From Candidatus Gemmiger faecavium (lineage in GTDB: Bacteria; Bacillota; Clostridia; Oscillospirales; Ruminococcaceae), in assembly GCA_019114415.1 (NCBI GenBank), contig DXFO01000007.1:1-64000 (forward strand): a stretch of 64,000 nt of DNA, in the 5' to 3' direction. Within the stretch, counting starts at the first letter, position 1. Every line of letters begins with the position of its first letter. The notes beneath the pieces were generated by a model. It worked only from the letters and a program-made list of their open reading frames with translations. It was not told the origin of the DNA and did no database searches. Shown here one piece after another: positions 25,591-37,000 of this stretch. Position numbers and translations under genes: made by a program.

Positions 25591-26370
25591 TTAGCCGGGG
25601 TAAATTTTGGCGACCTCGTACAGTAGCAGCTCCAGGAAGAGATAGACAATGACCTGATCTTCAAAGAAGTTGTCGGCGTCATCATGGCTGATCCAGGGCA
25701 GGGTAAAGACCTGGGTGGCGTATTTGGCCATAGAAATCTTGGAGTTCATAGTGATTAAGATGATAGGACAACCGTTTTCATGCAGTGAGCGGAGAAGCGG
25801 TTCCCTCCCTGCCAGTCCGCGACCTGCAACGCTAATGACTATACAGAGATCCCTATCAGAAAGGATCTCGGAGTTGTCGGTCATGACAACCCAGTCATCT
25901 GTGGCTTGATTGAAAATCCCAAGTCGACCCAATCGATGGGAAAGCTGCATGGCGGATTGAAAAGTGCGGTTGAAGCCCCAGATCGAGATGTGCCGCGCGG
26001 CACAGATGGTCTGGGCGGCTTTGCGCAGCTCTGCTTCGTCCACGAAGTCGGGAAGCTGGCGGATATAATGAATATAGGCTTCAATGGTAGTCTGCATAGG
26101 GGAGCCGTTCTCGCTCTGTTCGCCGCTGTGCTCAGCACCGTGGGAGAGAAGATACCGGTGCATCGAGAATTTGAACTCGGAAAATCCCTTGTAGCCCAGT
26201 TTTTGGCACAGGCGGACCAGCGCCGCATTGGAGGAAGCGGCGGATTTGGCAATGCCGGAAATACTGTCGCCCAGGACACAGCGGGGGTTGTCCAGGATGT
26301 ATTGCGCCAGTTTCTGCTCCGATTTGGTAAAGCTGTCCTTGTTTTTTTGCAGCAGGGCAATGGGGTCCAT
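25591..26370 (-). CDS. RpiR-family transcriptional regulator of locus A
   Basis: 259 residues: an N-terminal HTH_6 domain (MDPIALLQKNKDSFTKSEQ, then DSISGIAKSAASSNAALVRL and CQKLGYKGFSEFK) and a C-terminal SIS sugar-phosphate domain (from about residue 115; ISIWGFNRTFQSAMQ, DLCIVISVAGRG). RpiR proteins sense phosphosugars. The ATG at 26370 has GGAGG upstream; the longer open frame is noncoding-like. It is divergent from the EIIC operon; a -10/-35 pair at 26436-26464 and a palindrome in its leader suggest autoregulation. Confidence 0.92.
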   Translation of the reverse strand: MDPIALLQKNKDSFTKSEQKLAQYILDNPRCVLGDSISGIAKSAASSNAALVRLCQKLGYKGFSEFKFSMHRYLLSHGAEHSGEQSENGSPMQTTIEAYIHYIRQLPDFVDEAELRKAAQTICAARHISIWGFNRTFQSAMQLSHRLGRLGIFNQATDDWVVMTDNSEILSDRDLCIVISVAGRGLAGREPLLRSLHENGCPIILITMNSKISMAKYATQVFTLPWISHDDADNFFEDQVIVYLFLELLLYEVAKIYPG

Positions 26371-26408
26371 AATGAATCGCCTCCGGATTCCAAACTCAGG
26401 GAACGGTT

Positions 26409-26422
26409 TGGAAAAGTTTCCA
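26409..26422. promoter_or_regulatory. Palindromic operator candidate in the rpiR leader (locus A)
   Basis: TGGAAA-AG-TTTCCA, a perfect inverted repeat about 14 bases downstream of the rpiR -10 box, in a position that would block transcription of the regulator. Confidence 0.55.
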
Positions 26423-26435
26423 CTCGTTTGATTCC

Positions 26436-26464
26436 ATGATACCCTACATGCGGGGAAAAAGCAA
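26436..26464 (-). promoter_or_regulatory. Promoter of the locus A rpiR gene
   Basis: On the minus strand TTGCTT and TATCAT are separated by 17 bases, about 66 bases before the regulator's start codon. Confidence 0.55.
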
Positions 26465-26586
26465 CAGCGAAACCGGTGGAAATCATAGAATGGAAAGAAA
26501 AAAGTTTCGACTAAAGAACGAAACATCGAACTCTATTGTTGAAACTGCTAAAAATAGAAACTGCAATTTGAACATATTTCCGAAAA

Positions 26587-26600
26587 TGAAAAACTTTTCA
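26587..26600. promoter_or_regulatory. Palindromic operator candidate of the locus A PTS operon
   Basis: TGAAAA-AC-TTTTCA, a perfect inverted repeat ending 8 bases before the -35 box. The surrounding 26500-26640 region contains several more GAAAC/GTTTC half sites. Position upstream of -35 suggests an activator site. Confidence 0.55.
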
Positions 26601-34533: not shown

Positions 34534-34581
34534 CCCGGCAGCGGGGGAACCCTCCGGCATAGATTCGGCAAGGCTTGCTTT

Positions 34582-34607
34582 CCGCCGTTCTCTGATGAGA
34601 ACGGCGG
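34582..34607. repeat. Hairpin between sulfatase and GH1 genes
   Basis: CCGCCGTTCTC pairs perfectly with GAGAACGGCGG around TGAT. No U-tract follows, so it may be an mRNA processing or stabilising element within the operon rather than a terminator. Confidence 0.5.
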
Positions 34608-34701
34608 GGAGCGGCTTTGCCTGTTGTGCGGACAAAACCGTCCGCAGAACTTCCCAATTTTGTATGAGAGACAAACCCTGATCACACAGGAGGTAACGAC
34701 C

Positions 34702-36141
34702 ATGAGTGTTTTTCGCGATGATTTTCTGTGGGGCGGCGCCTGCGCTGCCAATCAGTTTGAAGGCGGCTGGAATGTGGACGGCAAGGGCGAGAGCGTGCCC
34801 GACCACTGCACCAACGGCAGTCATACCCAGCCCAAATGGGTGACCACCTCCATCCGTCCGGACAAGTTCTATCCCAGCCATGACGCCATCGACTTCTATC
34901 ATCATTATGAGGAGGACATTGCCCTCTTTGCCGAGATGGGCTTCAAGACCTTCCGCACTTCCATCAACTGGACCCGCATTTTCCCCACCGGTATGGAGGA
35001 CACCCCCAACGAGGCAGGCCTGGCCTTCTATGACCGGGTGTTCGACTGCTGCAAAAAGCACAGCATTGAGCCGCTGGTCACCATCAGCCACTATGAGCTG
35101 CCCTATGCCCTGGTGGAAAAGTACAACGGCTGGGAGAGCCGGGAACTCATCGACCTGTTCATGAACTACTGCAAGGCAATTTTTGAGCGCTACAAGGACA
35201 AGGTCAAGTACTGGCTGACCTTCAACGAAATCAACGCCGGCACCATGCCCTTCGGCGCGCTGGTCTCCACCGGCACCATCAAGGGGTACGAAGGCCCCAT
35301 GACCAACCTGCCCGACAAGCCCCAGGAGCGCTACCAGGCCCTGCATCATCAGTTCGTGGCCAGCGCCGCGGCGGTCAAGTACGCCCATGAGAACTATCCC
35401 CAGTTCAAGATGGGCAACATGATCTGCTTCATCACCAGCTATCCCTTTACCTGTGACCCGGCGGACATCCTGGCCTGCCAGCAGCAGATGCAGATGATGA
35501 ACTGGTTCTGCTCCGATGTGCAGGTCCGCGGCGAATACCCCTTCTACGCCAAGCGCTATTTTGCCGACCACGGCATCGAGATCAAAATGGAGCCCGGCGA
35601 CGCCGAACTGCTGAAACAGGGCGCGGTGGACTTCTACACCTTCAGCTACTATATGTCCAACTGCGTTACCACCCACAAGGATGCCGCCCGGACCGACGGC
35701 AATGTGAGCGAGGGCTACAAGAACCCCTACCTGGAAGCCTCCGACTGGGGCTGGCAGATCGACCCCAAGGGCCTGCGCTACACCCTCAACGAGATCTACG
35801 GCCGTTACGGCATCCCCATGATGGTGGTGGAAAACGGCCTCGGCGCCAAGGATGTGCTGGAGGAGGACGGCACCGTCCACGACAGCTACCGCATCGATTA
35901 CCTGCGCGCCCACATCGAGCAGATGGCCGAGGCCGTCAAGGATGGCGTGGACCTGATGGGCTATACGCCCTGGGGCTGCATTGACCTGGTTTCCGCCTCC
36001 ACCGGCGAGATGGCAAAGCGTTACGGTTTCATTTACGTCAAGAAATATGACGACGGCACCGGCGATTACAGCCGCCTGCGCAAGGACAGCTTCTACTGGT
36101 ACAAAAAAGTTATCGAAACCAACGGTGAAACGCTGGACTAA
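34702..36141 (+). CDS. GH1 6-phospho-beta-glycosidase
   Basis: 479 residues of glycoside hydrolase family 1. Acid/base E176 is in [11 protein letters not shown] and nucleophile E377 in [10 protein letters not shown]. The C-terminal [12 protein letters not shown] segment (S431, S433, K439, Y441) is the phosphate-binding signature of 6-phospho-beta-glucosidases/galactosidases, which fits PTS-delivered substrate. It cleaves the phosphorylated disaccharide in the cytoplasm. ACAGGAGG precedes the ATG at 34702. Its operon partners, EIIBC and a sulfatase, suggest a sulfated beta-disaccharide. Confidence 0.95.
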
Positions 36142-36205
36142 TCCCCGAATATGCGCTAATATATAAAAAGCGTTAAGAAATCTGGGAGATTAGGAGTGTG
36201 AGGAA

Positions 36206-37000
36206 ATGCAGCAGATACTGTTTTTCGTCGTAAGTTTACTGGCCTCGGTGGCAGGTGCCATCTGCGGCATCGGCGGCGGCGTCATCATCAAGCCGGTGCT
36301 GGACATGGCCCATCTGGCCGATGTTTCCACCATCAGCTTCCTTTCGGGATGCACCGTCCTTTCCATGAGCTGCTACTCGGTGGGCAAATCCATGCTGGCC
36401 AAGGACAGCTCGGTGGACCTGAAGAGCGGCACCTATCTTGCGGTGGGCGCTGCGGTGGGCGGTGTCTGCGGTCAGCAGCTGTTTGCCCTGGTCCGCAGCC
36501 TGTTTGAAAATCAGAACACTGTTGGCGCGGTGCAGGCGGCCTGCCTGTTCCTCATCACTCTGGGTACTCTGATCTACACCCTGCGCAAGGCAAATATCCG
36601 TACCCTCAATGTGCAGGGCCTTGTCCCCAGCGTCCTCATCGGCCTGGCCCTGGGCATCATGTCCAGCTTCCTGGGCATCGGCGGCGGCCCCATCAATCTG
36701 GTGGTCCTGGGTTACTTCTTCTCCATGCAGACCAAGACCGCGGCCCAGAACAGCCTGTACATCATCCTGTTCAGCCAGATCACCAACCTCCTCACCACCA
36801 TCGTGGCGGGCAACGTCCCCGACTTTGAGATCTTGACCCTGGTGCTCATGGTCTGCGGCGGCATCGGCGGCGGCATGATCGGCCGCTTCTTCAGCCGCCG
36901 GATGGACAACCGCGCAGTGGATAAGCTGTTCATCGGCCTGATGGTCGTCATTATGGGCATCAGCGTCTGGAACACCTGCCGCTACTCCGGCATTCTGTGA
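36206..37000 (+). CDS. TSUP-family (TauE/SafE) membrane transporter
   Basis: 264 residues with about 8 hydrophobic helices in two homologous halves. Each half carries the family glycine motif (AICGIGGGVIIKPVLDM near the N-terminus and SSFLGIGGGPINLVVLGYF near residue 155). TSUP proteins move sulfite, sulfoacetate, sulfate-like or other organic anions. It starts 64 bases after the GH1 gene on the same strand. In this operon the simplest inference is disposal of sulfate or sulfite from cytoplasmic desulfation. GAGG lies before the ATG. Family is sure; substrate is inferred. Confidence 0.88.
   Translation: MQQILFFVVSLLASVAGAICGIGGGVIIKPVLDMAHLADVSTISFLSGCTVLSMSCYSVGKSMLAKDSSVDLKSGTYLAVGAAVGGVCGQQLFALVRSLFENQNTVGAVQAACLFLITLGTLIYTLRKANIRTLNVQGLVPSVLIGLALGIMSSFLGIGGGPINLVVLGYFFSMQTKTAAQNSLYIILFSQITNLLTTIVAGNVPDFEILTLVLMVCGGIGGGMIGRFFSRRMDNRAVDKLFIGLMVVIMGISVWNTCRYSGIL

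Follow-up and report, generated by a model that had tools for sequence, protein, structure and literature searches.

In this study we examined a 64,000-nt stretch of the Candidatus Gemmiger faecavium genome (contig DXFO01000007.1, assembly GCA_019114415.1; the window hereafter), in which two neighbouring operons each join a sugar phosphotransferase system (PTS) to a sulfatase gene. Open reading frames (ORFs) and Pfam and NCBIfam profiles gave the gene order EIIC(Lac)-sulfatase-EIIA-EIIB for operon 1 and EIIBC(Bgl)-sulfatase-GH1-TSUP for operon 2, each with a divergent RpiR-type regulator gene, and ORFs, family matches and sequence thus confirmed the layout described in a first-pass annotation of this DNA. 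We propose, with a probability of about 0.7, that the operons are paired modules for the PTS-coupled desulfation of sulfated sugars of the beta-glucoside or disaccharide class. Each PTS would import an intact sulfated compound and phosphorylate it, as expected at C6; a formylglycine sulfatase, matured by an anaerobic sulfatase-maturating enzyme (anSME) encoded elsewhere, would desulfate the phosphorylated sugar inside the cell; and in operon 2 a GH1 6-phospho-beta-glucosidase would then free glucose-6-phosphate and the TSUP protein would carry the released sulfate out of the cell. Control of each operon would fall to its RpiR protein, which probably senses a sugar phosphate. The scheme builds on what was observed, namely the gene content, the motifs, the lack of signal peptides, the maturase and general PTS genes, the recurrence of the linkage and the residues specific to a clade; every activity, whether desulfation precedes hydrolysis, which way TSUP transports and what the substrate is are our inference. 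Intact import with phosphorylation and cytoplasmic desulfation had been suggested at first pass, and the suggestion is supported by the lack of signal peptides, by the maturase, EI, HPr and EIIA genes of the genome, by PTS linkage of relatives across phyla and by the phospho-type GH1.

The sulfatases of operons 1 and 2 (S1 and S2) carry the formylglycine motifs C53-V-P-S-R57 and C49-M-P-A-R53, respectively. In our alignments D13 and D301 of S1 and D9, D274 and H275 of S2 were invariant and H302 of S1 nearly so, and we take these six residues to be metal ligands. Upstream of the S1 start at 28109 and the S2 start at 33064 there was no in-frame ATG, GTG or TTG before an in-frame stop, and in structure models the first strand of the sulfatase fold starts at residue 6 of S1 and residue 2 of S2. 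Because no upstream start exists and the protein enters the first strand directly, these starts leave no room for a signal peptide, and a better start bearing one was rejected; judged from their sequences, both enzymes are cytoplasmic, and the earlier observation of a C-x-P-x-R motif without a signal peptide holds for both. The models (mean pLDDT of 81.6 for S1 and 91.6 for S2) are good sulfatase folds, and since the solved structures listed by Foldseek (the 50 best for each) are only 15-24% identical to S1 and S2, specificity is unreadable from them.

The remaining general components were found in the same genome (2.55 Mb in 75 contigs, 92.1% complete, with ten PF00884 genes). A maturase was sought elsewhere in the genome, as had been proposed at first pass, and a single gene above the TIGR03942 cut-off (374.6 bits against 349.45) on contig C73 was identified as the anSME, so that a genome without a maturase was rejected. 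The genome also has an EI gene beside an HPr gene and a second HPr gene. A profile search found no EIIA domain in the EIIBC of operon 2; two Glc-type EIIA domains are encoded outside the locus, one of which could serve it.

To place S2 among its relatives, 84,980 species genomes were scanned and the best 80 of 567 confirmed matches were used. Among these 80, 17 loci were at least 51% identical to S2, and 15 of them were PTS-linked (the exceptions being L098 and L139). The PTS-linked carriers were Lachnospira pectinoschiza, metagenome-assembled genomes of uncultured Eubacterium, Erysipelotrichaceae and Solobacterium (several from goats), Paenibacillus massiliensis, a Clostridiaceae bacterium, uncultured Hungatella, Enterococcus ratti, another Enterococcus and Listeria aquatica, and at 48-49% identity the linkage extended to Mesoplasma photuris, Thaumasiovibrio and Enterobacter. 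These labels rest on tblastn with EII genes taken partly from the same loci, which makes detection easier there; Gat-type EIIs lay outside the tblastn references, and L217-L218 and L220-L222 were labelled by annotation or later tblastn. On a tree of 109 S2 rows, 19 of them PTS-linked, the label required 3 changes compared with about 17.7 when shuffled (none of 500 shuffles was as low), and 17 of the 19 fell within one 18-row clade with local support of 100, whose 18th member (L098) adjoins a GH3 gene. With the plasmid loci included (24 PTS-linked of 114 rows) the figures were 4 changes and about 22.

An independent check of the neighbours of non-PTS S2 genes (loci L108-L173) covered 86 of 111 ORFs in 58 of 61 loci, the other 25 having been dropped by hand; all but three of these were short, and one of the three was itself an S2 gene. 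The 86 ORFs included 14 MFS_1, 8 MFS_2 (overlap possible) and 5 members of an ABC permease family, so that MFS and ABC permeases were the most frequent transporters there, and no PTS family was present among the 25 commonest of 89 families, a list in which a single-member PTS gene could be hidden. This check was also the one search that extended to Man- and Fru-type PTS.

The PTS class beside S2 varies: some loci have a Bgl-type EIIBC(A), several have Lac-type or other PTS_EIIC proteins, and those of Enterobacter hormaechei and Escherichia coli have a Gat-type EIIC. The sulfatase family is thus constant while its transporter changes. Other genomes contributed 18 PTS-linked S2 loci, and the fetched flanks of these, some of them short, contained anSME genes in nine cases and genes for the formylglycine-generating enzyme (FGE) in four. 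Of the radical SAM genes, four reached 328-354 bits against the anSME profile, a score that for one gene lay above the cut-off of 349.45, and both FGE genes tested matched PF03781. The presence of a maturase and an exporter beside the sulfatase and the PTS argues for true release of sulfate in the cytoplasm. The full composite is present in L096 and reads anSME, RpiR-EIIBC-S2, RpiR-EIIC-S1-EIIB-EIIA-GH1-GH1-TSUP. In the very small genome of Mesoplasma photuris (about 0.8 Mb), Lac-type EII genes, S2, FGE, an EIIBC and a TSUP-like ORF (named by eye) lie together (L120, 4926-14776). The module is also carried by plasmids: a conjugative plasmid of Enterococcus faecium has LicT-EIIABC-S2-hydrolase-TauE-FGE (L217, 5169-12948), a 1.1-Mb plasmid of E. 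raffinosus has a similar set with anSME, and a conjugative plasmid of Serratia entomophila has EIIBC-S2-GntR-anSME. In E. coli, a cluster of Gat-type EIIC, EIIB and an S2-type sulfatase occurs on the chromosome in 552 of 5426 complete genomes and, in the record read (L221, 4303-7482), lies between rlmC and the art genes.

Several further genes were seen at these loci. An annotated aryl-sulfate sulfotransferase gene adjoins the PTS-sulfatase genes of Enterobacter hormaechei (L220, 2465-5991). A membrane-like protein of 147 amino acids (aa), possibly an accessory PTS part, is encoded next to EIIC in four S2 loci (L097, 8553-8996; L113; L105; L106), and the one copy tested had no Pfam match. A GH3 group recurs near S2- and S1-like genes (L098, 6593-8317; L066; L089; L117; L162; L204), and all three of the GH3 sequences read (L098, L117 and L204) contain KHFPGDG....DQH, a motif that presumably marks a hexosaminidase.

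The glycosidase of operon 2 scored 580-618 bits with four 6-phospho-beta-glucosidase models, all below their cut-offs (the best 618.4 against 624). In 6-P-beta-glucosidases the L8a loop is described as having, usually, Ser430, and Ala431, Ser432, Gln/Glu435, Lys438 and Tyr440 (LpPbg1 numbering), the Ala replacing a Trp found in galactosidases and in Glu-P enzymes (PMC3605045). The loop of the window GH1 matches all six determinants residue for residue, which suggests an enzyme of the phospho-specific 6-phospho-beta-glucosidase type. The Ser and the M-x-K-R-Y motif were kept in all seven GH1 proteins from such loci or near S1 (the window, two from L096, and L102, L206, L198 and L215), two of which have Cys for Ala; this set includes L198, which is not PTS-linked by the rule used, and L215, where the gene is partial and about 7 kb away. 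In contrast, the GH1 encoded 1.3 kb from a non-PTS S2 gene in Ruania (L111) has Trp-Glu-Trp and no KRY, as in enzymes for unphosphorylated glucosides. Since all seven have the phospho loop and L111 does not, the GH1 type, in this small set, tracks the phosphorylation expected from the transporter.

The TSUP gene recurs, within the fetched flanks, in 6 of those 18 S2 loci with a PTS, and the protein would fit export of freed sulfate. The first-pass idea that released sulfate is kept from competitors is disfavoured by this gene in operon 2 and by its recurrence in such loci. Pairs of ChrA-like (chromate transporter) genes near PTS-sulfatase genes in L096 (4293-5407) and L101 (12757-13947), checked with Pfam for one, are possibly another exit route for sulfate.

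Within the S2 family we compared 17 PTS-linked proteins of the Bacillota/Mycoplasmatota clade with 87 non-PTS relatives, looking for residues present in at least 75% of the former and at most 25% of the latter, and found 33 such positions. R123 was present in 17/17 against 5/87, K142 in 17/17 against 3/87 (an alignment-dependent count, being 11/90 among the others in the 114-row alignment), H150 in 16/17 against 0/87, where 79/87 have Asp, R156 in 15/17 and R416 in 13/17, each against 3/87, and R205 in 17/17 against 14/87, with Lys in 48. Across the 114 rows, H150 occurred in 21/24 PTS-linked proteins and in 1/90 others, that one being L098 within the PTS clade; the exceptions at this position were Asn in L100 and Asp in the Gat-type rows of E. 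coli and Enterobacter. Neither R123 nor R156 was found in any of the five gammaproteobacterial PTS-linked rows. The exchange of Asp for His and the new basic residues would fit a substrate with an added phosphate, and we put forward, tentatively and as the less probable view, that PTS-linked S2 proteins, and perhaps the clade of the window's S1, are phospho-sulfoglycoside sulfatases that recognise the phosphate added by the PTS, with R123, K142, H150 and R156 as their candidate signature. No sulfatase with such specificity turned up in our searches of open-licence PMC texts. An independent-pairs comparison of H150 with PTS linkage gave only two supported pairs, too few to have power, and the pattern is a lead rather than proof because it reflects one, perhaps two, evolutionary events.

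Relatives in the organism's own family and order set the PTS apart as the special part of the window, since sulfatases without a signal peptide are general in these families. S1 was searched for in sets of 297, 394, 20 and 295 genomes, and S2 genome-wide, so that closer kin of S1 may exist. Among 297 genomes of the family, 20 had an S2-like and 12 an S1-like gene (E <= 1e-60), and nine of those 12 had both (Fisher p 8e-10 by genome; 4/7 genera, p 0.001), kinship being taken into account only as far as genus. A survey of sulfatase-PTS neighbourhoods, proposed at first pass, bore fruit in other families only: in 40 regions from 23 genomes of the own family (this genome included; some contigs short), an S1- or S2-like gene was present in 37 and no gene matched any PTS gene of the window. 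In the order, S1 (E <= 1e-60) was found in 3 of 394 genomes, this one included. At C2:8926-11900 the same genome has an S2-like gene (42% identical to S2) adjoining an S1-like one (45% identical to S1), and no PTS gene of the window's type accompanies them. Adjacent S2 and S1 genes also lie behind an ABC transporter operon of ribose-type look in a Hungatella (L194), an Erysipelotrichaceae (L197) and a Solobacterium (L199) genome, an ATPase family check having covered L199 alone. A ROK gene lies near those of L194 and L197, and a YdjC gene near those of L197 and L199.

PTS-linked S1 genes were found in several groups. In Lactobacillales, S1 (E <= 1e-60) was present in 4 of 295 genomes; three of the loci are LicT-EIIBCA-S1-anSME operons, one of them followed by TSUP and one with FGE nearby, and the fourth is S1-FGE beside LicT-EIIBCA. 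An uncultured Hungatella has RpiR-EIIC-S1-TSUP-anSME, its S1 being 63% identical to that of the window (L193). The S1 proteins of the window, L096, L193 and the three LicT-EIIBCA-S1-anSME operons make up a six-row clade that is entirely PTS-linked, with support of 100/100; over the whole tree of 37 S1 rows, linkage required four changes. No clear residues diagnostic of linkage were found over all PTS-linked S1 proteins, because linkage arose several times in S1. In the window's clade, small at six rows, 24 positions are conserved that are rare or absent in 23 others, including K111, K249 and K284.

The pairing of the two sulfatases bears on how many substrates there are. Of 18 genomes with PTS-linked S2 that were searched, together with two non-PTS genomes, 10 had S1 (E <= 1e-40) and 6 had PTS-linked S1, either with S2 (L094, L096, L101) or at separate loci (L097/L205, L103/L193, L113/L206); with the window, 7 of the 19 genomes chosen for PTS-linked S2 also have a PTS-linked S1. 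Furthermore, LicT-EIIBCA accompanies S2 in Enterococcus ratti, Listeria aquatica and a second Enterococcus, whereas elsewhere in Lactobacillales its partner is S1. Because S1 and S2 co-occur and each can follow LicT-EIIBCA, their substrates probably belong to one class and differ in where the sulfate sits. The two PTS families of the first-pass annotation are real, and the two substrates drawn from them are weakened by the shared genomes, the common LicT-EIIBCA context and the 9/12 co-occurrence in the own family.

A system of this kind is already known as a proposal, made in 2012 for a pneumococcal PTS-sulfatase-TauE island without biochemical proof. The island, SPH1922-SPH1930, comprises a PTS-Lac, a sulfatase, a modifying enzyme and TauE, and was proposed to take up sulfated sugars and export sulfur oxide (PMC3302838); its loss attenuates colonisation of mice, the joint function of the genes being left open in that report (PMC3283741). 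A published primer for the island (PMC3283741) encodes, in our own reading, D-Q-M-R-A-D-A-L, a start motif of S1 relatives. Operon 2 resembles the island in combining PTS and sulfatase genes with an exporter of the TauE family and a regulator gene that faces the other way, and operon 1 shares its Lac-family PTS. The island differs in having two EIICs, a ROK regulator, a ComA-like gene and its own maturase, with no GH1 in its description; the window differs in its RpiR regulators, two adjacent PTS classes, 6-phospho-beta-glucosidase and maturase on C73. In Companilactobacillus farciminis, the sulfated thioglucoside sinigrin is reported to be handled inside the cell by CfPttS, a PTS of the Bgl type, and CfPbgS, a 6-phospho-beta-glucosidase of family GH1, in a scheme where sulfate is lost non-enzymatically and whose main text mentions no sulfatase (PMC8660893). 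Operon 2 has the same two parts and adds a sulfatase and an exporter, and because of this combination a glucosinolate or similar plant glucoside deserves naming as a candidate substrate, although on our analysis an unlikely one; a 2018 review of gut glucosinolate metabolism called the role of sulfatases unclear and the enzymes in need of identification (PMC6767122). The Bacteroides gut sulfatases BT1918 (S1_46) and BT4656 (S1_11) are periplasmic and act on non-phosphorylated glycans (PMC10154612); S1 and S2 share their fold and formylglycine chemistry and, unlike them, are predicted to be cytoplasmic. Hyaluronan disaccharides are imported with phosphorylation by a PTS of Streptococcus pneumoniae and cut inside, by a path with an EIIA-EIID type PTS and an unsaturated glucuronyl hydrolase and, as described, no sulfatase (PMC9067506). 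Our searches of open-licence PMC texts gave no characterised PTS-coupled sulfatase. What is new here is how widespread and mobile the module is, together with its pairing of two sulfatase families, its coupling to a phospho-glycosidase and the residue pattern.

The nature of the substrate is where PTS-coupled desulfation of a plant or dietary glucoside has its main rival, a host glycan fragment such as a sulfated N-acetylhexosamine (HexNAc) disaccharide of mucin, keratan sulfate or heparan, to which we give somewhat less than even odds. HexNAc sulfates take this rank from genes found next to some of the relatives: YdjC (PF04794) adjoins a PTS-linked S1 in L205 and the non-PTS S1 and S2 genes of L197 and L199, and the GH3 genes, some with the motif given above, lie near S2 and S1 genes that are not PTS-linked. 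The best phmmer match of S1 in the PDB, 7oz8, is BT1918, a sulfatase of 3S,6S-N-acetylglucosamine (PMC10154612), and at about 24% identity this match is too distant for its specificity to be transferred. Against a host fragment, the GH1 proteins of the window, L096 and L102 are of the gluco 6-phospho type, none of the ten operon genes encodes a hexosaminidase or deacetylase, and the carriers include Lachnospira pectinoschiza, Listeria aquatica, Paenibacillus and Mesoplasma. The order of steps might also be reversed, with GH1 cleaving first and the sulfatase acting on a released sulfated aglycone or sugar without phosphate. GH1 6-P-beta-glucosidases are described as lacking aglycone specificity (PMC3605045), and the non-PTS relatives of S2 presumably desulfate compounds imported unphosphorylated; however, S2 changed with the kind of transporter at positions 123, 142 and 150, and 16 of 18 PTS-linked S2 loci have no GH1 in the fetched flanks, other glycosidase families not having been systematically searched for, so that we regard the reversed order as possible but doubtful.

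It is improbable that sulfur rather than carbon is scavenged, with sulfate freed for assimilation and TSUP importing or retaining it. A serine acetyltransferase-like gene (23779-24441, named by sequence) lies about 1.1 kb beyond the operon 1 regulator gene, a possible but unsupported link to sulfur; the operons, in turn, have carbon-type PTS and RpiR genes and a 6-phospho-glycosidase, no assimilation gene is among the ten, and a LicT antiterminator gene precedes the similar set in Enterococcus, Listeria and other Lactobacillales. Even less probable is that S1 and S2, as members of the superfamily to which sulfatases belong, instead hydrolyse phosphonate or phosphate esters. The phosphonate monoester hydrolase 4uph is the best Foldseek match of the S1 model and the second-best PDB match of S2 by sequence, after 4upl (listed as the sulfatase SpAS2), whereas choline-sulfatase and carrageenan and glycosaminoglycan sulfatases match with about equal scores and relatives lie beside anSME or FGE and TSUP genes in several genomes.

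Certain observations nevertheless weigh against PTS-coupled desulfation as we propose it. Operon 1 has no glycosidase, GH1 is missing from the fetched flanks of most PTS-linked S2 loci as counted above, and S1 was not found (E <= 1e-40) in 8 of the 18 PTS-linked-S2 genomes, from which it follows that S2 also works alone. Both folds are also near those of phosphonate monoester hydrolases. Within S2, and against phosphate recognition in particular, the PTS clade lost Lys125 (present in 72/87 others) and Lys419 (76/87) and gained the acidic residue D341, and its residues, having arisen once or twice, may follow ancestry and not phosphate. For the pneumococcal island, the authors saw neither sulfatase activity with 4-methylumbelliferyl sulfate nor an effect on growth (PMC3283741), and in the papers that we consulted no relative of S1 or S2 had a described activity.

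The features of the locus are listed in the table; both operons close with a strong terminator-like hairpin. For operon 1, EIIC, EIIA and EIIB were all above their Pfam cut-offs and EIIC also above that of TIGR00410, and the stricter Lac-family models TIGR00823 (118.2 against 136.95 bits) and TIGR00853 (88 against 110 bits) were missed; an ATG at 26714 or 26717 is a likelier EIIC start than the TTG at 26609 of the listed ORF. The SIS-domain match of RpiR2 was weak (PF01380, 23.9 bits, under the cut-off of 25). All three exact GTCC-N6-GGAC palindromes of this locus lie between RpiR2 and EIIBC, and the motif has 6 matches in the whole window against 1.36 expected, a number reached in no shuffle. 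Promoter-like sites numbered 8 against 4.5 expected, and the placement of the palindromes near such sites fits a role as RpiR2 operators. No operator motif common to the relatives was found, the repeats upstream of their operons having other sequences.

Table. Genes, hairpins and candidate operators of the two PTS-sulfatase operons, in window coordinates
Feature	Position	Strand	Basis or remark
RpiR/MurR-type regulator of operon 1 (RpiR1)	25591..26370	-	PF01418 74.6 bits
PTS EIIC, lactose/cellobiose (Lac) family	26717..28012 (or from 26714)	+	TIGR00410 282 bits, cut-off 236; PF02378
Sulfatase S1, C-V-P-S-R	28109..29599	+	PF00884 147.7 bits
PTS EIIA, Lac family	29612..29941	+	PF02255 123.7 bits
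PTS EIIB, Lac family	29956..30258	+	PF02302 87 bits
Terminator-like hairpin closing operon 1, after EIIB	30301..30341	+	17 pairs, 12 GC
RpiR-type regulator of operon 2 (RpiR2)	30364..31137	-	PF01418 76.3 bits
GTCC-N6-GGAC palindrome, candidate operator	31217..31230	.	overlaps RpiR2 promoter-like site 31193-31221
GTCC-N6-GGAC palindrome, candidate operator	31253..31266	.	exact motif match
GTCC-N6-GGAC palindrome, candidate operator	31402..31415	.	about 50 bp upstream of EIIBC promoter-like site 31466-31494
PTS EIIBC, beta-glucoside (Glc/Bgl) family	31564..33036	+	TIGR01995 521.9 bits, below cut-off 614.7; PF02378, PF00367
Sulfatase S2, C-M-P-A-R	33064..34533	+	PF00884 108.3 bits
GH1, putative 6-phospho-beta-glucosidase	34702..36141	+	NCBIfam models and phosphate-binding loop
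TSUP (TauE/SafE) transporter, presumed sulfate/sulfite exporter	36206..37000	+	PF01925 94 bits, cut-off 32.6
Terminator-like hairpin closing operon 2, after TSUP	37030..37072	+	18 pairs, 11 GC

The well-studied gut sulfatases are exported enzymes of Bacteroides, and the recurrent, partly plasmid-borne module described here could give Bacillota, Mollicutes and Enterobacteria a second, private route to sulfated compounds. The pneumococcal island, the E. coli cluster and the question of a bacterial glucosinolate sulfatase are all connected by it. The residue pattern makes phosphate recognition testable as a requirement for the 6-phosphate, and if S2 does recognise that phosphate, operon 2 would be a complete route in which a sulfated sugar is phosphorylated, desulfated and hydrolysed and its sulfate exported.

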